A stretch of DNA of 43,553 nucleotides from positions 1 to 43,553 of the forward strand of contig JAUXYI010000077.1 in NCBI GenBank assembly GCA_030694425.1. The letters are read 5' to 3'. Both the position numbers and the translations under genes were made by a program. Origin of the DNA: Thermodesulfovibrionia bacterium. GTDB taxonomy: Bacteria > Nitrospirota > Thermodesulfovibrionia > UBA6902 > BMS3Bbin08. Under the pieces are notes generated by a model. That model saw nothing but the letters and a program-made list of their open reading frames with translations, ran no database searches and had not been told where the DNA came from. Below are positions 22,080 to 32,294 of this stretch, one piece after another; position 1 is the first letter of the stretch; every line of letters starts with the position of its first letter.

Positions 22080-24830
22080 TTAATTAAGATATTCCTTTAA
22101 ATATACGCCGGTATAAGAATTTTTTTGCTTTGCTATGTCCTCTGGTGTTCCTTCCACAATGATGTTACCACCTTCCTCACCGCCTTCTGGTCCCAAATCT
22201 ATAATCCAATCAACACATTTTATGACGTCAAGGTTATGCTCAACTAAAAGGACGGTATTGCCTGCATCAACAAGGGCATTCAACACATTAAGCAGTTTTT
22301 TAATGTCATCCGGGTGAAGACCGACAGTAGGCTCATCAAGTATATAAAAGTAGTCTCTTCTGTCTGCAATCCCGAGCTCAGAGCAGATCTTAAGTCTCTG
22401 GGCTTCGCCGCCTGAAAGTGTTGTGGCTGGTTGACCAAGCTTTAAATAATCAAGACCTACTGATGCCATTAATTTTAATTTCTTGGTGATAGAAGGCATA
22501 TCAGAAAAAAACTTAAGCGCCTCATCTACTGTAAGTTCAAGTATCCCATAAATGTTTTTGCCTTTGTATGTAATATCTAAAATTTCCTGTTTGTACCTTT
22601 TGCCCCCGCATTCTTCACATTTAATATAGAGGTCTTCAAAGAAATACATCTCATATTTCTGGAAACCTTCTCCTTTGCATGCCTCACAGCGGCCACCTTC
22701 AGTATTAAACGAAAAATGTCCTGCTCCATAACCGAGATTTTTCGCCTGAACCTGAGACGCAAAGAGTTTTCTTATCGGGTCAAATACCTTAATATATGTA
22801 ACCGGGTTAGACCTCGGGCTTTTGCCAATAGGATGCTGGTCTATAATTCTAACTCCCTTTAGGTATTCAATCCCTTCAATAGATTTGAAAGGCAGGATAT
22901 CCTCAAACTCTATTTTAAAAGCCCTTGCAAGGGCATTATAGAGGGTGTGCTTCACTATACTGCTTTTGCCCGAGCCTGAAACCCCTGTTATGCATGTTAA
23001 AGTTTGAAGGGGAATATTTACGTCTATATGTTTCAGATTATGTCCGCTGGCGCTTTTTATCAGGAGAACTTTACCGTTGCCTTTGCGTCTATATTTAGGG
23101 GTTGGTATTGATTCCACGTTATTTAAATAGTTTGCCGTGAGGGTGCCGGATTTCAGGAAATCGTTTTTCCAGCCGGAAAAAAGCAAATTCCCTCCGTTTC
23201 TGCCTCCGCCCGGGCCAAGCTCTACAACCCAGTCAGAAGAGTTAATAACGGCTTTATCATGCTCAACAACAACAATAGTGTTTCCGAGTTCTGATAGTTC
23301 ACCTATTATCTCTGTGATTTTACTTACATCTCTTGGATGGAGTCCTACTGTCGGCTCATCCAGCACATAAAGGGTTCCAGTGAGTCTTGATGCAAGCTGG
23401 TTGGCAAGATTTATCCTTTGCGACTCGCCGCCTGAAAGGGTTTTAGAAAGTCTGTTCAATGTGAGATATCCTAAGCCGACTCTAATAAGAAAACGGAGCT
23501 TCATATCAATTTGTCTGCGTATTTCTGATGATATTTCCTGCTCATACTCTGTAAGATGAAGCCCGGCGAAATAGTTGCTTAATTGCGATATTGACATTCC
23601 TGATAACTGTGCGATATTTAAACCTCCAAAAGTAAATGCAAGCGCCTCGGGATTAAGCCTGCTTCCATTGCACCGGTTACATGTTACGGCCTTTCGGTAT
23701 TTGCTTAAAAATACCCTCACATGGAGCCTGTATCGTTTGCTTTCCAAATATTCAAAAAATTCATTCAATCCATAAAAATCGGGATTCCCTTTGAATATTA
23801 ACTCCTTTGCTTCTTTGGAAAGATTTTTATAAGGGATATTAAGCTTAATCCCTGCCTTTTTTGCTGCCTTTGTAAACTGCCTGTACCACCACTTAAAAGA
23901 CGGCTTGCTCCAGGGACCTATAGCGCCTTTTTCTAAAGGAAGTTCCTTGTCAGGGATAATAATGTCCTCTGCGTATTCAAGCTTGTTCCCAAAGCCTTTG
24001 CATTCAGGGCATGCGCCAAGCGGGTGGTTAAAAGAAAAGAGAAGCGGCTGAGGTTTTGTTATTTCTATGTTGCAGTTAAGACATTTCATCTCGCGAGAAA
24101 AAATCCAGATTTTATTCTCTTCCGCTGTATCACTCACAAATTCAACTTTCACATATCTGCTTGTATGTGCCCATGCAGTCTCAATGGAATCCGAAAGACG
24201 CGGGTCATCTTTTACAATAAGCCTGTCCAGGACTACATTGAGTGACGAGTGACGAGCCTGCCTGCTCGGTAGGCAGGTGACGAGTGACGAGATATCCACG
24301 ATTTTTCCGTTAATTAATATTCTGTGGAAACCTCGCCTTTGAAGCTCTTCCGGCGGATCATCAGTATCAAAAATTATCAGTGCTTTTTCGCCGGGATAAT
24401 TTTCAATCAGTTCCGTAACTATAGAAGAAGGTGTCCACGCCTTTAACGTCTGCCCGCATTTCGGACAATGCGGCTGTGCTACCTTTGAATAAAGGAGTCT
24501 CAGGTAATCATAGATTTCCGTAGCTGTTCCCACTGTGGAGCGGGATGTTTTTACAGGATTTCTCTGTTCAAGGGCAATTGCAGGCCTTATATTGCTGATT
24601 TTTTCAACATCCGGACGGTCGAGTTTCTCAAGGAAAAGCCTTGCATAAGTAGAAAGGGACTCTATAAATCGCCACTGCCCCTCAGCAAAGATTGTGTCAA
24701 AAGCCAGGGAAGACTTGCCAGATCCCGATACTCCTGTGACAGCTATAACTTTATTGTGAGGCAGTCTGAGGTTTATATTTTTAAGGTTATTCTGTTTTGC
24801 CCCTTCTATGATAAGTTCATTTATGTACAT
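22080..24830 (-). CDS. uvrA: Excinuclease ABC subunit A
   Basis: DNA-damage recognition ATPase of nucleotide excision repair, 916 residues. Two ABC ATPase halves are visible: Walker A TGVSGSGKSSLAFDT (32-46) and TGVSGSGKSSIVKHT, with signatures LSGGESQRINLANQLAS and LSGGEAQRLKICSELG. Zinc modules are CPKCG, CLNC...CPECKGFG, and CEACKGEGF...CEECGGKRY. The start MYINELIIEGAKQNNLKNI is standard. A palindromic repeat inserts about 15 residues at 181-197 (LVTCLPSRQARHSS) between GKIVDIS and LNVVLDRLIVKDD, without breaking the frame. It may be SOS-regulated. Confidence 0.96.
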   Translation of the reverse strand: MYINELIIEGAKQNNLKNINLRLPHNKVIAVTGVSGSGKSSLAFDTIFAEGQWRFIESLSTYARLFLEKLDRPDVEKISNIRPAIALEQRNPVKTSRSTVGTATEIYDYLRLLYSKVAQPHCPKCGQTLKAWTPSSIVTELIENYPGEKALIIFDTDDPPEELQRRGFHRILINGKIVDISSLVTCLPSRQARHSSLNVVLDRLIVKDDPRLSDSIETAWAHTSRYVKVEFVSDTAEENKIWIFSREMKCLNCNIEITKPQPLLFSFNHPLGACPECKGFGNKLEYAEDIIIPDKELPLEKGAIGPWSKPSFKWWYRQFTKAAKKAGIKLNIPYKNLSKEAKELIFKGNPDFYGLNEFFEYLESKRYRLHVRVFLSKYRKAVTCNRCNGSRLNPEALAFTFGGLNIAQLSGMSISQLSNYFAGLHLTEYEQEISSEIRRQIDMKLRFLIRVGLGYLTLNRLSKTLSGGESQRINLANQLASRLTGTLYVLDEPTVGLHPRDVSKITEIIGELSELGNTIVVVEHDKAVINSSDWVVELGPGGGRNGGNLLFSGWKNDFLKSGTLTANYLNNVESIPTPKYRRKGNGKVLLIKSASGHNLKHIDVNIPLQTLTCITGVSGSGKSSIVKHTLYNALARAFKIEFEDILPFKSIEGIEYLKGVRIIDQHPIGKSPRSNPVTYIKVFDPIRKLFASQVQAKNLGYGAGHFSFNTEGGRCEACKGEGFQKYEMYFFEDLYIKCEECGGKRYKQEILDITYKGKNIYGILELTVDEALKFFSDMPSITKKLKLMASVGLDYLKLGQPATTLSGGEAQRLKICSELGIADRRDYFYILDEPTVGLHPDDIKKLLNVLNALVDAGNTVLLVEHNLDVIKCVDWIIDLGPEGGEEGGNIIVEGTPEDIAKQKNSYTGVYLKEYLN
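24240..24291. repeat. Palindromic repeat inserted in frame in uvrA
   Basis: CCTGCCT and AGGCAGG face each other across a 7-base loop. They are flanked on both sides by GAGTGACGAGTGACGAG-like direct copies. The element lies inside uvrA and is translated, adding a short polar segment at a variable loop. Confidence 0.7.
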
Positions 24831-26709: not shown

Positions 26710-27435
26710 TTATTTTGGCCTTAATACAATTAATCCAGGCTTCTCAGATATATAATTTCTAAAATCCTGATCAATTACTTTTCTATATTTCTTATCTGAG
26801 GAGGCATGTCTTAAATAGATAAAATCTCCGTCTTTGATAATAATCCCTGCATGCGAGACATCCAGCCCCTGTATTTCTGAATATATCCCTGCATAATCAC
26901 CCGTTTTTATCTTATCTACAACAGAATCATCAATGGCACCTGACGGTATATATTGAATTTTTCTTTGTCGGGGCTGAACACCCTGCAGAAAATGTGTGCT
27001 GTCTTCTTTCCTGTTCAGGATTTTTGTAATATTTTTTGTCTTCTGACTGCCAATATTGCTTGTAACATCATCAACGAATTCAGAATTAAATTCCCGCCAG
27101 TCTGTGAAGAAATGATTTCTATTCTCAAAGGTTATATTTTCTTCCCGGTATCTCACTTTTTTTAGATTTTCCCTGAATTCAGGAAAAGAGCTGGACAGCC
27201 GCATTGCCTCAATGTAATCAATAAATGTAAAGCAATCAACCCCCTGCAGATTTATTATAAAAACTTCCGGGGTGTTTATATTTCCAGTCAATGTTGATTC
27301 TTTATAGTCCACATCGAGGAAAAGCCTGGAGAGAAAATTTATCCGTGCTCCGATATCCTTAATCTCACTGGATTCATGCAGTATATGTTCTAATTCGCTC
27401 TGAGTCCATTTGTCTAAGACGATATACTCTTTCAT
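26710..27435 (-). CDS. DUF1460 N-acetylmuramoyl-L-alanine amidase-like protein
   Basis: Protein of 241 residues from the DUF1460 family, which has an NlpC/P60-like cysteine-peptidase fold. Visible motifs are GVDCFTFIDYIEAMRLS with the nucleophile Cys, NRNHFFTDW, and LDVSHAGIIIKDGDFIYLRHAS with the catalytic His. Structurally studied relatives cleave the amide between MurNAc and the stem peptide. No signal peptide is visible, so it would act in the cytoplasm on material imported by the adjacent AmpG. Divergent from mqnB, with 46 bases between the starts. Confidence 0.87.
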   Translation of the reverse strand: MKEYIVLDKWTQSELEHILHESSEIKDIGARINFLSRLFLDVDYKESTLTGNINTPEVFIINLQGVDCFTFIDYIEAMRLSSSFPEFRENLKKVRYREENITFENRNHFFTDWREFNSEFVDDVTSNIGSQKTKNITKILNRKEDSTHFLQGVQPRQRKIQYIPSGAIDDSVVDKIKTGDYAGIYSEIQGLDVSHAGIIIKDGDFIYLRHASSDKKYRKVIDQDFRNYISEKPGLIVLRPK

Positions 27436-27463
27436 CTATCTGGGATTATATATATTTTTATAC

Positions 27464-27481
27464 TATAATACATTACAATTT
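27464..27481 (+). promoter_or_regulatory. mqnB -10 box, near-leaderless
   Basis: TATAAT at 27464-27469 lies 12 bases before ATG 27482, and no Shine-Dalgarno sequence is present. Transcription would begin within a few bases of the start codon. Confidence 0.45.
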
Positions 27482-28276
27482 ATGGAATTTCTTGCTATTT
27501 TAGCATCAATGCCTTTTGAGTCAGAAAAAATTCTGGCCTGCCTGAAAAATGTCCATAAAACAAAAATTGCAGAAAAAATTATTTACAAGGGGAAACTCTC
27601 AAATGTTAATGTCCTTCTTATGAATACAGGCATCGGAGATGTGAATGCTGCACATTCAGCAACAGGCATTATTGAACATTTCCCGATAAAATGTATTATT
27701 AATTCAGGAATTGGCGGCGCATATCCACACTCGCAGCTTAAGATAGGAGACATCGCAATAGCATCAAAAGAAATATATGCTGACAAAGGAGTGATATCTA
27801 CAAGAGGACAGAAAGATTTTAAAAAAATCGGCATCCCGCTTGTGCAGGTCGGAAAGAAAAAATACTTCAATGAATTCCCTCTTGATAAAAGTCTTGTACA
27901 AAAAGTTTTAAATTCATTCCAATGCACAAAGGATAATCTGAAAAATCCCCCCTCACCCCCCTTTAGCAAAGGGGGGATGGGGGGATTTTTAGGTAATATA
28001 AAAGCTGGCAATTTTGTCACTGTCTCTTCAGCAACAGGCACGCACAAAAGGGCAGCAGAACTTGAGAAGAGATTTAATGCTATTTGCGAAAACATGGAGG
28101 GCGCAGCCATTGCACAGGTTTGCACAATGTACAAAATTCCCATGATTGAAATCAGGGGCATAAGCAATATCGTCGGAGAGAGAAATAAAAGAAAATGGGA
28201 CTTAAAGCTTGCCTCAGAAAATTGTCAGAGAGTGGTTTTAAGAGTAATCAGCTCCCTTCTACCCGCCAATTTTTGA
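27482..28276 (+). CDS. mqnB: Futalosine hydrolase
   Basis: Nucleosidase of 264 residues that removes hypoxanthine from futalosine in the alternative menaquinone pathway. It resembles MTA/SAH nucleosidases: MNTGIGDVNAAHSA, INSGIGGAYPHSQLKIGD, and AICENMEGAAIAQVC with the substrate-binding Glu of the MEGAA motif. I choose ATG 27482 (MEFLAILASMPFESE) over the longer upstream frame. Residues at about 154-170 (NPPSPPFSKGGMGGF) come from a palindromic repeat inserted in frame, so the loop is longer than usual. The tail overlaps moaA on the opposite strand by 18 bases. Confidence 0.9.
   Translation: MEFLAILASMPFESEKILACLKNVHKTKIAEKIIYKGKLSNVNVLLMNTGIGDVNAAHSATGIIEHFPIKCIINSGIGGAYPHSQLKIGDIAIASKEIYADKGVISTRGQKDFKKIGIPLVQVGKKKYFNEFPLDKSLVQKVLNSFQCTKDNLKNPPSPPFSKGGMGGFLGNIKAGNFVTVSSATGTHKRAAELEKRFNAICENMEGAAIAQVCTMYKIPMIEIRGISNIVGERNKRKWDLKLASENCQRVVLRVISSLLPANF
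27940..27992. repeat. G/C-run palindromic repeat inserted in frame in mqnB
   Basis: The arms GAAAAATCCCCCCTCACCCC and its near-complement ending GGGGGGATTTTTA meet at a CTTTAGCAAAG tip. The element is dispersed-repeat-like and adds about 17 residues to futalosine hydrolase without a stop. Similar C/G-run inverted sequence recurs at 43256-43354. Confidence 0.75.
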
Positions 28277-29236
28277 CATTGGTCTGAGTGCGTTGAATTC
28301 TTTCGTGCAGTTCAGGTTATGCCCTTCAGGTTTTACTTCTATGGCGAGTTTAATGAGCCTTTCAATCTCGGAGTCAGGTGCCCCGCTTCTAAGCGGATTT
28401 TTTAAATCTATCTCTGTCTCTGAAAAAAGGCAGGGCCTGAGTTTTCCGTCAGCGGTAAGGCGGAGGCGGTTACATTCAGTGCAGAACTGGTGAGAGATTG
28501 CATTAATAAAACCTACGACCCCTGAAGCGCCCTCAAACCTGAAATACCTTGCAGGCCCTGACTTCCTCAGCCTTACAGGTGTAAGAGGGCCTATCTTCTC
28601 CGCAATGGATTTTATCTCGTTAATTGGAATATATTTTTCAGGACTCCACAAATCCCTTGCGCCAAGCGGCATAAATTCTATAAACCGCACCTGATAAGAT
28701 TTCTCTAAGGTCATTTTTGCGAAGTCTTCTATCTCGTCATCATTAAAGCCCCTGATTGCCACCATGTTTATCTTTACAGGTATCAGTCCGGCCCTCTCAG
28801 CCTTATCAATTCCGCGCAAAACGTTATCAATATCACCGCCCCTCGTTATCTTTGCATATTTATCCGCTCTTAAAGAATCGAGACTAACATTCACACGCCT
28901 GAGTCCTGCTTGGGCAATTTCATCAGCATATTTTTCAAGAAGCACCCCATTGGTTGTCAGGCTTATGTCTTCAAGGCCTTTAATGTTATTGAGCGATGAT
29001 ATTAAGTAGGTAATATTTTTTCTTGCGAGGGGTTCGCCGCCCGTTATCCTTATTTTTTTTACACCGAGTGAAACTGCAATCGCTGCAATCCTTATAATTT
29101 CTTCATAGCTCAAGATCTCTCTGTGCTTAATTGGTTTTACCCCTTCGGGAGACATGCAGTAGATGCATCTGAGGTTGCAGCGATCGGTAACAGAAATGCG
29201 GAGATAGTCTATCTTTCTGCCATAATGGTCTTTCAC
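28259..29236 (-). CDS. moaA: GTP 3',8-cyclase MoaA
   Basis: Radical SAM enzyme that begins molybdenum cofactor synthesis from GTP, 325 residues. The SAM cluster motif is RCNLRCIYC; the second cluster uses FCTECNRLRLTADGKLRPC. The C-terminal GG (MSKIGG), needed for activity in studied enzymes, is present. TGGEPLARKNI is the SAM-binding GGE region. ATG 29236 overlaps the stop of the cpoB-like gene by 4 bases, so it is the last gene of the tol-pal transcript. It pairs functionally with mogA and the MOSC gene at 12.9-13.9 kb. Confidence 0.96.
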   Translation of the reverse strand: MKDHYGRKIDYLRISVTDRCNLRCIYCMSPEGVKPIKHREILSYEEIIRIAAIAVSLGVKKIRITGGEPLARKNITYLISSLNNIKGLEDISLTTNGVLLEKYADEIAQAGLRRVNVSLDSLRADKYAKITRGGDIDNVLRGIDKAERAGLIPVKINMVAIRGFNDDEIEDFAKMTLEKSYQVRFIEFMPLGARDLWSPEKYIPINEIKSIAEKIGPLTPVRLRKSGPARYFRFEGASGVVGFINAISHQFCTECNRLRLTADGKLRPCLFSETEIDLKNPLRSGAPDSEIERLIKLAIEVKPEGHNLNCTKEFNALRPMSKIGG

Positions 29237-30195
29237 TGTTTTTTCTTTGCAGGTGCGGGTTTTTTCTGTGCAGGGGGGGCAGGAGGGATGAGTTTTTGCT
29301 TTGCAACTTGCGCCTCTTCAGAATCAGGAAACTTTTCAATAAGTTTTTCCAGAACTATTTTGCCTGTTTTTTTATCATTCAATTCATAGAATGCTAAACC
29401 CTGTTTCAGCATTGCACCTGGAATCTTGTCACTCCCGGAGTTCTTTTTTAAAAGTTCTTCATAGGCAAGGATTGCTTCCTCGTAATTTTTTTCTTTGAAA
29501 TAACTCTCGGCTATCCAGAACCTGGAATTATCTGAATATTCATCCTCAGGATAATCCTTCAATATGGTCTGAAATTTTTCTCGTGCACCCTCAAGTTCGG
29601 TTGCTTTATATGCCTTGTATGCTTCCATATAGAGGTCTTTTACATCTTTTGTAACCTGAGGGGGCTTTTTCTCTCCTTCGGATTTTTCCGCTTTTACTTC
29701 TTCGGCTGGTTTTTGTTTTTCAGCAGGCACTTTTGTTGTCTCTAAATCAGCCAGCTTTTTATTTAAGTTATTTACTGTGACTTCAAGTTCTTTTACCTTT
29801 GCAATGAGGGTGTCTTTACTTTCCCCGAGTTCCTTAGAACTTTTTTCTGAAAAATAACGAGATTCCTCAAAACGGCCCGTAAGAACCTTAAGCTCTGTGG
29901 TAAGGGACTGTACTTTTATCAGCAGGTCCGAGACAGCATTGCTTGTAGCCTTTTGCTCATTTTCCAATCCACTAAGACGTTTATTTAATTGTTCATCCTG
30001 TCCTGGTTTCTGGCGTTCTAATGCCTGAGACCTTTGCTTTATATCTTTGACGTCAGCCTTTAATTCATTCATTTCCCACTGCACTTTTCCGATGTCCTCT
30101 GGTGTAGCACAAGCAGCGAAAATAAACATAGAACACAGAGCACAGAGTATAGAGCGCAGAATATAAGGAATGACTCCCTTTAATCTTTTAGTCAT
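29233..30195 (-). CDS. cpoB: Tol-Pal system protein CpoB/YbgF-like lipoprotein
   Basis: Periplasmic protein of 320 residues that links Tol-Pal action to septal peptidoglycan synthesis. It has a lipoprotein signal peptide with lipobox FAAC (Cys29), a coiled-coil region (about 33-150) and C-terminal TPR repeats (KDLYMEAYKAYKATELEGAREKF, NSRFWIAESYFKEKNYEEAI). The end is a Pro/Ala/Lys-rich tail. E. coli CpoB is not a lipoprotein, so this is the lipid-anchored type. The hydrophobic part of its signal peptide is encoded by a 7-base repeat that also appears in tolB. It follows pal in the operon. Confidence 0.88.
   Translation of the reverse strand: MTKRLKGVIPYILRSILCALCSMFIFAACATPEDIGKVQWEMNELKADVKDIKQRSQALERQKPGQDEQLNKRLSGLENEQKATSNAVSDLLIKVQSLTTELKVLTGRFEESRYFSEKSSKELGESKDTLIAKVKELEVTVNNLNKKLADLETTKVPAEKQKPAEEVKAEKSEGEKKPPQVTKDVKDLYMEAYKAYKATELEGAREKFQTILKDYPEDEYSDNSRFWIAESYFKEKNYEEAILAYEELLKKNSGSDKIPGAMLKQGLAFYELNDKKTGKIVLEKLIEKFPDSEEAQVAKQKLIPPAPPAQKKPAPAKKKQ
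30126..30160 (-). repeat. Five heptamers coding for the CpoB-like signal peptide
   Basis: On the minus strand five consecutive 7-base units follow the pattern TCTRYRY: TCTGCGC, TCTATAC, TCTGTGC, TCTGTGT, TCTATGT. Translated, they give SILCALCSMF, the hydrophobic core before the lipobox. The same unit makes the repeat in tolB. Confidence 0.7.
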
Positions 30196-30234: not shown

Positions 30235-30396
30235 CCCCTGCTTCTTCAGGGTTGTCTTATTTCTGTCATTCTGGCTTGTCCATCCCGAAATGTCGGGACG
30301 AACAAGTCGGAATGACGGCTTAAAAAAGATTCCCAACAAGCGGGAATGACAATAAAAACAAAGATTCAACTTTCAAATACCCTGCTTGCTGCAGGG
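30235..30396. repeat. Repeat block between pal and cpoB
   Basis: The block is bounded by two CAGGG hairpins: CCCCTG/CAGGG (30235-30251) and CCCTGC/GCAGGG (30380-30396). Each is followed by TTCTT- or TTGTC-like sequence, as at 6232-6251. Between them a palindrome reads GTCATTCTGGCTTGTCC...CGGAATGAC around CCCGAAATGTCGGG. It occupies the 211-base gap inside the tol-pal operon. Confidence 0.6.
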
Positions 30397-30406
30397 TTCT
30401 TCATTT

Positions 30407-30934
30407 TTACTTTGTAACTACAAAATGCGCCCTTCTGTTTTTCTGATAGCAGGCTTCATTTTGCTCTGTACAAATTGGTTTTTCTTCGCCATAACTGATG
30501 GTGTTTATTTTTGTGGAAGCAACTCCACGGGCTATAAGATAATCTCTTGCTGCTGTTGCACGCTTTTCTCCCAGAGCGAGATTATATTCATTAGTTCCTC
30601 TTTCATCGCAATGACCCTCAATAAGAATATTTATATTCTTGTTTTTGTTGAGCCATGCTGCGACAGAATCCAGCGCTACCCTGGCATCCGGCCTTATATC
30701 ATACTTATCATAATCAAACAGGGCGTCTTTAAGTTCAAACGCAGGCTCCTGAGCCTGGAGAACAGGGGTCGGAGCAACCTCTCTCGGGATAATCTTTTCC
30801 TCAACCTTGACTTCTTTCGGAGCCTCCACAGCAGCTTCCGGTTTTGCCCTAACAGGCTCTTCAGTCTCCTTTACATATTTCTTTGCACAGCCAACAGCAA
30901 AAATGATTAGAACTAAAATCAATACCTTTTTCAT
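30407..30934 (-). CDS. pal: Peptidoglycan-associated lipoprotein Pal
   Basis: Outer-membrane lipoprotein of 175 residues that anchors the membrane to peptidoglycan. It has a signal peptide with lipobox AVGC (Cys16) and a Pro/Glu/Lys-rich linker (about 20-65). The OmpA-like domain contains FDYDKYDIRPDA, IEGHCDERGTNEYNLALGEKRA, and a SYGEEKP loop. The D and R residues that bind diaminopimelate are present. It sits after tolB, the normal order. AGGAGG lies just before ATG 30934. Confidence 0.96.
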   Translation of the reverse strand: MKKVLILVLIIFAVGCAKKYVKETEEPVRAKPEAAVEAPKEVKVEEKIIPREVAPTPVLQAQEPAFELKDALFDYDKYDIRPDARVALDSVAAWLNKNKNINILIEGHCDERGTNEYNLALGEKRATAARDYLIARGVASTKINTISYGEEKPICTEQNEACYQKNRRAHFVVTK

Positions 30935-31016
30935 CTTAGCATTCCTCCTTTCAAAGTTTTAATAATATGATTTTAATTGTTTTAACTCTTAACTCCAAAC
31001 TCATAACTCTAAACTC

Positions 31017-32294
31017 TTACTTAATATACGGTGACCATTTTGGATTCATAGCCTTTATATCCTTCGGTGTAATCCTCTTCTGCCTCTCACCGTTAATGCT
31101 CATTAAGTAAATGCCTTTGCTGCCGTCCCTGTCAGAGTCAAAGGCTATAAACATGCCGTCAGGAGAAAATGTCGGGTTCTCATTATTTCTATTCTCTGTA
31201 AGTTGTCTCAAATCCGTACTGTCAGATTTTATCATAAAAATCTGATTATTGCCATTTTTCCTGCCTACAAAAGCTATCCATTTTCCGTCAGGAGACCACG
31301 CAGGCGAAGTATTATACACGCCCTCAAAAGTAAGCCTTCTTATTCTTGTTCCATCTGAATCCATTATGTATATCTGCGGTGTACCTCCTCTGTCTGACAC
31401 AAAGACAATTTGAGAGCCGTCAGGAGAAAATACCGGCGATACATCAATCCCGAGGGATTTGGTAAGTTTTTTAGAGCCGCTTCCATTAAGATTCATAACA
31501 TATATCTCTGGGCTGCCGTCTTTTGAGGATGAAAATGCTATTTGGTTGTTATGGGAAATACCGCCGACAAGATTAATCCCTTTAGATGAAAATAGGGTCA
31601 TCTCCCTGTAATTTCTGAGGTTCAATGAATAAATCTCCCACATCTTGTTCCTCTCCGAAGAATAAACAAGATACTGACTGTCAGGAGACCAGATGTGGCT
31701 TAAGGTTAATCCGATTGAAATCACCCTTGTCTGGCTATATCCATCCCAATCCATCATGTGTAATGAGTTTTTACCGTATGAACTTACTATATAAGCAATT
31801 TTTGTCCTGAAAATCCCTTCTCTTCCTGTTATCTCCTTAAAGATGTCATCTGAGATACTATGGGCAAGTGTACGCAAGATATTTCTTGAAGCTGTATATT
31901 TTTTTCTGAAGACTTCCTTATTGTTTATTAAATCAAAGAGTGTAACGTCTGCCTTTATTTCTTCGGCGGTCTCCACGCTTATCTTAGCTGTTATTTCTGC
32001 TCCTGAAATGTCAGGGTCTATGAGATAGAAAATTCCGGCAAAATCTAAATCATTTTTTACAATCTCAGGGATTTCTTTTGCCCCTTCCGGACCTGTATAG
32101 CTTATTGATATGGGGAGTTTCCTCAGGGCAGGGGATGTTATATCAATATAGACTTTAGCATGAGCAGAGGACAGACAAAAGAACACAGAGCACAGAACAC
32201 AGACTAAAGAAAACAGAACATAGGATATAGACAACAAATTATTTTTGTCTGTGCTCTGTGCTCTGTGCTCTGTGCTCTTTTGTTTATAGTTCAT
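31017..32294 (-). CDS. tolB: Tol-Pal beta-propeller protein TolB
   Basis: Periplasmic beta-propeller that shuttles between Pal and the Tol complex, 425 residues. After a signal peptide (cleavage likely after SSAHA, residue 46) comes the N-terminal domain with ALRKLPISIS. The propeller repeats have SPDG-type blades: FSPDGSQIVFVSDRGG, WSPDGKWIAFVGRKNG, FSPDGMFIAFDSDRDG. The start at 32294 is supported by an ATGA overlap with the tolA-like gene. Nearly the whole signal peptide (residues 5-43) is encoded by a palindromic heptamer repeat. Confidence 0.96.
   Translation of the reverse strand: MNYKQKSTEHRAQSTDKNNLLSISYVLFSLVCVLCSVFFCLSSAHAKVYIDITSPALRKLPISISYTGPEGAKEIPEIVKNDLDFAGIFYLIDPDISGAEITAKISVETAEEIKADVTLFDLINNKEVFRKKYTASRNILRTLAHSISDDIFKEITGREGIFRTKIAYIVSSYGKNSLHMMDWDGYSQTRVISIGLTLSHIWSPDSQYLVYSSERNKMWEIYSLNLRNYREMTLFSSKGINLVGGISHNNQIAFSSSKDGSPEIYVMNLNGSGSKKLTKSLGIDVSPVFSPDGSQIVFVSDRGGTPQIYIMDSDGTRIRRLTFEGVYNTSPAWSPDGKWIAFVGRKNGNNQIFMIKSDSTDLRQLTENRNNENPTFSPDGMFIAFDSDRDGSKGIYLMSINGERQKRITPKDIKAMNPKWSPYIK
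32176..32282. repeat. Palindromic heptamer repeat forming the tolB signal peptide
   Basis: Arms are 32176-32204 and 32247-32282. On the minus strand the upstream arm has GAGCACAGAGCACAG units and the downstream arm GTCTGTGTTCTGTGCTCTGT-type units; they are complementary apart from one extra heptamer. The downstream arm encodes VCVLCSVFF of the signal peptide and the upstream arm the polar STEHRAQSTD. Confidence 0.75.

Follow-up and report, generated by a model that had tools for sequence, protein, structure and literature searches.

The window analysed here, a stretch of 43,553 nucleotides from an uncultured Thermodesulfovibrionia bacterium (Nitrospirota), carries on its minus strand a Tol–Pal cluster in the order TolQ, TolR, a TolA-like protein, TolB, Pal and CpoB. 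The last gene, cpoB (29233–30195, minus strand), encodes a 320-residue protein (MTKRLKGVIPYILRSILCALCSMFIFAAC) whose identity as a CpoB-like lipoprotein, proposed in an earlier note on this DNA, is borne out by a score of 99.2 bits against TIGR02795 (tol_pal_ybgF; NCBIfam cut-off 90.1), by TPR_6 and YfiO Pfam matches, and by its location beside tolB and pal, as expected for the YbgF/CpoB lipoprotein of the Tol–Pal system. Within this reading frame the minus strand from 30160 to 30126 consists of five uninterrupted TCTRYRY heptamers (TCTGCGC, TCTATAC, TCTGTGC, TCTGTGT and TCTATGT). They are translated in frame as most of the h-region of a predicted lipoprotein signal peptide (MTKRLKGVIPYILRSILCALCSMFIFAA; 30112–30195, minus strand), and after one further residue the array gives way to a FAAC lipobox (30109–30120, minus strand), the arrangement that the note had described. 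The phenylalanine at position −3 of this lipobox is non-canonical, and the lipid-modified Cys29 at which the mature protein would start is a rule-based prediction. The array has no inverted partner, and folding revealed no hairpin in it and structure no better than chance (z = +0.7). A chance origin of the array is discounted by genome-wide counts: a run of three TCTRYRY units matches the genome of the window (G000; 2.42 Mb in 101 contigs) at 63 overlapping sites (about 34 arrays), the reversed pattern matches nowhere in the same 2.42 Mb, and three tandem units are present in 34 of the 61 genomes searched.

The further claim that the heptamer recurs in a second signal peptide of the operon proved correct for tolB (31017–32294, minus strand; 425 residues; TIGR02800 above cut-off and PDB TolB matches), whose signal peptide is largely built of heptamer arrays on both strands. 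An AGAGCAC array (32241–32287, minus strand) forms the first arm of a hairpin and encodes the hydrophilic n-region (QKSTEHRAQSTDK), and a TCTGTGY array (32173–32211, minus strand) forms the second arm and encodes the hydrophobic h-region (SLVCVLCSVFFC). One heptamer read from its two strands thus yields both KSTEHRAQST and VCVLCSV, and the arms pair in an almost perfect stem of about 29 bp that spans the signal peptide (−53.6 kcal/mol, z = −8.2). The pal gene between them (30407–30934, minus strand; TIGR02802 above cut-off, OmpA Pfam) has an ordinary lipoprotein signal peptide without heptamers and is the control within the operon for an array-free leader. An array of another heptamer, TTAACTC, lies between pal and tolB (30982–31019), and the gap between pal and cpoB (30240–30360) holds an inverted repeat around CCCGAAATGTCGGGACGAACAAGTCGGAATGACGG, apparently one more dispersed palindrome.

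Arrays of this kind form a large population. Counting as an array any run in which 16 of 21 positions match at a set lag, we scanned 1.28 Mb of stretches, of which 0.88 Mb had not been chosen for arrays, and found 281 arrays of period 7 and at most 29 of any other period listed. The excess holds in each stratum (143 and 138 period-7 arrays against no more than 12 and 17 at other periods), the signal at period 14 is a harmonic of that at period 7, and shuffling the first 715 kb left a single array where the real sequence has 198, establishing the period-7 population. The units are diverse, degenerate 7-bp sequences of many families, and most arrays are 28–80 bp long. An inverted partner lies within 150 nt of 101 of 280 arrays, compared with 12 that have a direct partner and 8 in a random control, making facing pairs a common arrangement that involves about a third of arrays. 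Intergenic arrays in the genome of the window fall mostly between genes of the same direction (119 of 142), and gaps of this type account for about 69% of its intergenic bases. Arrays and hairpins are unusually dense, many of them in frame, at about 60–90 kb of its contig 48 (L046–L047), a region that contains the cobalamin genes CbiG–CbiH and CbiM and a CobS-like ORF.

The arithmetic of the repeat provides a framework for its coding behavior. As 7 leaves a remainder of 1 on division by 3, every frame of a tandem stop-free heptamer yields one and the same cyclic heptapeptide. For TCTGTGC this is SVLCALC (hydropathy 2.5) on the pyrimidine-rich strand and AQSTEHR (−2.1) on the opposite one. Classing a reading as h-region-competent when the consensus unit, read one way or the other, encodes a heptapeptide that is hydrophobic, uncharged and free of stops, we found this reading in sense and antisense at 19:1 in export leaders and 8:41 in gene bodies (p = 8e-10), and balanced at 26:22 in intergenic DNA. 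Strand sets whether the reading is greasy or charged, and frame is irrelevant.

Gene bodies bear out the hydrophilic side of this rule. Among the 33 TCTRYRY arrays located by gene calls, 19 lie in gene bodies with the antisense, hydrophilic EHRTQNT reading, and the lone body array read in sense (L043) seemingly falls within a pilin-type leader. The idea that the heptamer is a signal-peptide element as such does not survive this result, TCTGTGC being found mostly in non-exported genes. In-frame insertions are established by comparison with solved homologues, relative to which KdsB carries about 40 extra residues (QVQNTEHRTQSTENPPSPPFSKGGMEG...; L053), AroA 9 (L034) and HolB about 25, the last derived from a hairpin (SNELQVTSKNKDSSLVTRHSSL; L066) that two copies in the CbiG–CbiH fusion (L047) resemble. 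In the window itself, GAGTGAC-type heptamers at 24240–24291 lie within a UvrA-like gene (22080–24830, minus strand) with the in-frame reading SSLVTCLPSRQARHSSLN, and look like a further in-frame repeat insertion, here in a DNA-repair gene. A nucleosidase-like gene (27410–28276, plus strand) contains a second dispersed repeat, NPPSPPFSKGGMGGF, across which its PDB match is interrupted and relatives of which stand beside heptamers in four other stretches (L039, L046, L048 and L053).

Export leaders are where arrays concentrate within genes. They were called with a simple gene caller and our own rules, which covered Sec, lipoprotein and pilin types, and the first 90 nt of other genes served as controls. 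The caller was revised to include an upstream start search and the pilin rule, since its first version had put the cpoB start inside the array and missed pilin leaders; that version found arrays in 7 of 102 leaders and 7 of 669 other starts in unbiased stretches. With the revised caller, arrays occur in 12 of 142 genes with leaders and in 2 of 630 control starts in stretches of the window's genome not chosen for arrays (p = 7e-8), in 6 of 45 leaders against 1 of 184 other starts in G006 (p = 3e-4), and in 1 of 69 against 2 of 216 in G029, which has few arrays and where the difference is not significant; pooled over the three genomes, the enrichment has p = 4e-10, and in the control genome G058 none of 28 leaders has an array. 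Synonymous shuffling of leaders brings the count of arrays down from the 11 observed to 0.67, although matching at lag 5 is slightly raised as well. These counts establish a leader hot spot in two genomes, G000 and G006, and agree with what the earlier note had expected of a genome-wide scan against codon-shuffled controls, except that the enrichment is not specific to TCTGTGC: leader heptamers include TTCACTG, ACTTCTT, TTACTGC, TGTCACT and GTCTATT among others. Per kilobase, arrays number 0.99 and 1.53 in the leaders of G000 and G006, 0.56 and 0.81 in intergenic DNA, and 0.05 and 0.11 in gene bodies. The density in leaders is 17 times that in gene bodies and a little above that in intergenic DNA (22 arrays against 13 expected, p = 0.016). 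Because hydrophobicity is among the leader criteria, a hydrophobic array could itself favor a leader call, a bias that is reduced, and not abolished, by Pfam: most array-bearing leaders belong to families known as exported or membrane proteins (LolA, LptD, OEP/TolC, Peripla_BP_2, CbiM, HlyD, DUF3108, T2SS-G, YbgF and TolB). The signal peptides of both TolB and OEP are array-built, and the OEP leader also forms a hairpin (z = −7.3). In type IV pilin and T2SS pseudopilin leaders (L115, L043 and L158), heptamer arrays stand immediately before the GFTLxE-type cleavage site.

Arrays also recur among orthologues. Across 27 CpoB orthologues with a recognisable lipobox, including that of the window, the signal peptides score 0.393 for lag-7 matching, compared with 0.311 (sd 0.009) in synonymous shuffles; at a slightly looser threshold of 15/21 matches, arrays occupy 11 of the 27 signal peptides, against 0.88 in shuffles, and none is found in the first 26 mature codons of these orthologues. 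Recurrence in CpoB is therefore established, with at least four different heptamers in the same slot: TCTGTGC (G000, G025, G036), ACTTCTT (G009, G007), TTCACTG (G006, G011) and TTCTGTC (G029). Array unit and number vary across the orthologues, which include no closely related strains, and the slot is occupied time and again by whichever heptamers a lineage carries. The other 16 orthologues have ordinary lipoprotein signal peptides without arrays, from which it follows that arrays entered or replaced pre-existing ones, and the CpoB export signal is probably older than its array. The notion that the heptamer is a ready-made source of export signals is accordingly upheld in part, in that leaders are enriched for arrays, and set aside in part, in that CpoB orthologues free of arrays already have export signals. 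A TCTRYRY array also lies at or beside the signal peptide of DUF3108 proteins in seven genomes (G000, G003, G006, G007, G009, G011 and G013) and of TolB in two (G000 and G006), as judged by comparing coordinates. The DUF3108 arrays span three families (f1, f4 and f5) at nearly the same residues, and such persistence across 60–68% protein identity suggests renewal or selection; retention over such divergence argues against neutrality, since a neutral array would need renewal.

We consider it probable that period-7 arrays, found genome-wide, land repeatedly in signal peptides because these are permissive sites, with selection sorting insertions by how they are read. Short arrays, often as inverted hairpin pairs, arise or insert across the chromosome, and selection, to judge from their position and orientation, would sort them by hydropathy. 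In folded proteins mostly the hydrophilic reading would persist, at termini or in loops. A 7-bp array specifies one hydrophobic heptapeptide whatever the frame, which may be why signal peptides and pilin leaders are permissive; since all that matters in them is that the start be charged and the core greasy, they could tolerate the hydrophobic reading, and arrays would pile up there at roughly the density of noncoding DNA. In cpoB one array would have become the h-region of a lipoprotein signal peptide already present, and in tolB an entire hairpin would supply n-region and h-region together. On this view, which we infer, leaders act chiefly as tolerant sites.

Tolerance alone would not lead one to expect more arrays in leaders than in intergenic DNA, and the excess observed counts against it. 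On the boldest reading, which we regard as unlikely, the repeats would be a self-renewing source of leaders: a pyrimidine-rich array at a gene start would give a working core in any frame, a hairpin would add the n-region, slippage would tune length, and the leaders of this order would be repeatedly rebuilt from repeats. We are also doubtful, and a touch more so, that arrays serve adaptively as a stock of export signals, kept or renewed in leaders as a frame-proof, length-adjustable core in which three units (21 nt) make one heptapeptide. That density excess would fit such a supply, as would the way in which different heptamers have repeatedly filled the CpoB slot, the retention of DUF3108 arrays in three families, and the array-built signal peptides of TolB and OEP; yet the excess is small and exposed to leader-calling bias, array-free orthologues have normal signal peptides, and the same repeats occur in many non-exported genes. 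It is distinctly improbable that arrays are regulatory sites or RNA hairpins acting on translation or transcription near gene starts, carried by leaders through their 5' position. The very stable TolB and OEP hairpins would suit such a role, which MacGregor (PMC4679880) proposed for TAACTGA repeats that directly precede start codons, but the cpoB array is unstructured beyond chance, orientation tracks the hydropathy of the reading, many arrays are mid-gene, and leaderless gene starts are nearly free of arrays, and for this last reason we did not adopt a regulatory site tied purely to the 5' end as the main explanation. That codon bias and a composition rich in Leu, Cys, Ser and Val create the periodicity by chance has next to no probability, for although signal peptides are of low complexity and lag-5 matching is slightly up, the reading is refuted by the synonymous shuffles of leaders and of CpoB, and the control genome has no arrays.

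Signal peptides are fast-evolving and have little sequence in common, and the origin of their sequences is an open question. Under the preferred reading, as a permissive landing site, they are repeatedly entered by one visible DNA source, and the frame and strand rule is testable in any heptamer-rich genome. Arrays also account for odd runs such as SVLCALC, EHRTQNT and LLLTSYF in predicted proteins.

Heptameric repeats are known from other bacteria, and our survey of the literature on tandem repeats in bacterial signal peptides, which covered few subscription papers and is weak evidence of novelty, found nothing relevant. Within that partial coverage, the accessible portions of PMC4692102, PMC2700814, PMC4679880 and PMC10969869 do not report a signal-peptide hot spot. 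As cited in PMC4692102, a 2007 report found heptameric simple sequence repeats over-represented in bacteria (GGGAATC in Xanthomonas, GGGGATT in Nostoc), and polymerase slippage was offered as their cause. Those repeats share with ours the excess of period 7, degenerate units and some inverted pairs, but they are described as mainly intergenic and discussed as G-quadruplexes, with no mention, in the accessible portion, of a signal-peptide hot spot or of a hydropathy strand rule. The heptanucleotide families of Geobacter metallireducens (PMC2700814) are likewise tandem heptamers scattered both within genes and between them, and in one class runs of five units face each other in pairs on opposite strands; their units (GGACCGG, MTYCTGA) differ, regulator sites or RNA elements are proposed, and signal peptides go unmentioned in the accessible text. 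The TAACTGA direct repeats of Beggiatoaceae, Cyanobacteria and Bacteroidetes (PMC4679880) also form heptamer arrays whose in-gene copies mostly take a stop-free orientation and lie at protein ends, but they sit mostly just upstream of start codons with a proposed translational role, and mainly one heptamer, with a single inverted pair, is described for that genome. Rickettsia palindromic elements (described in PMC10969869) are dispersed hairpin DNA tolerated in frame in unrelated metabolic genes, and KdsB, AroA and HolB display the same in-frame insertion into unrelated protein genes. Those elements are described there as about 150 bp long with conserved family sequences; the arrays lack a conserved family sequence of about 100–150 bp, and their hairpin arms consist of tandem 7-bp units that are degenerate and belong to many families. 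Repeat hairpins in frame in core enzymes are seen outside Rickettsia, here with export leaders as a hot spot.
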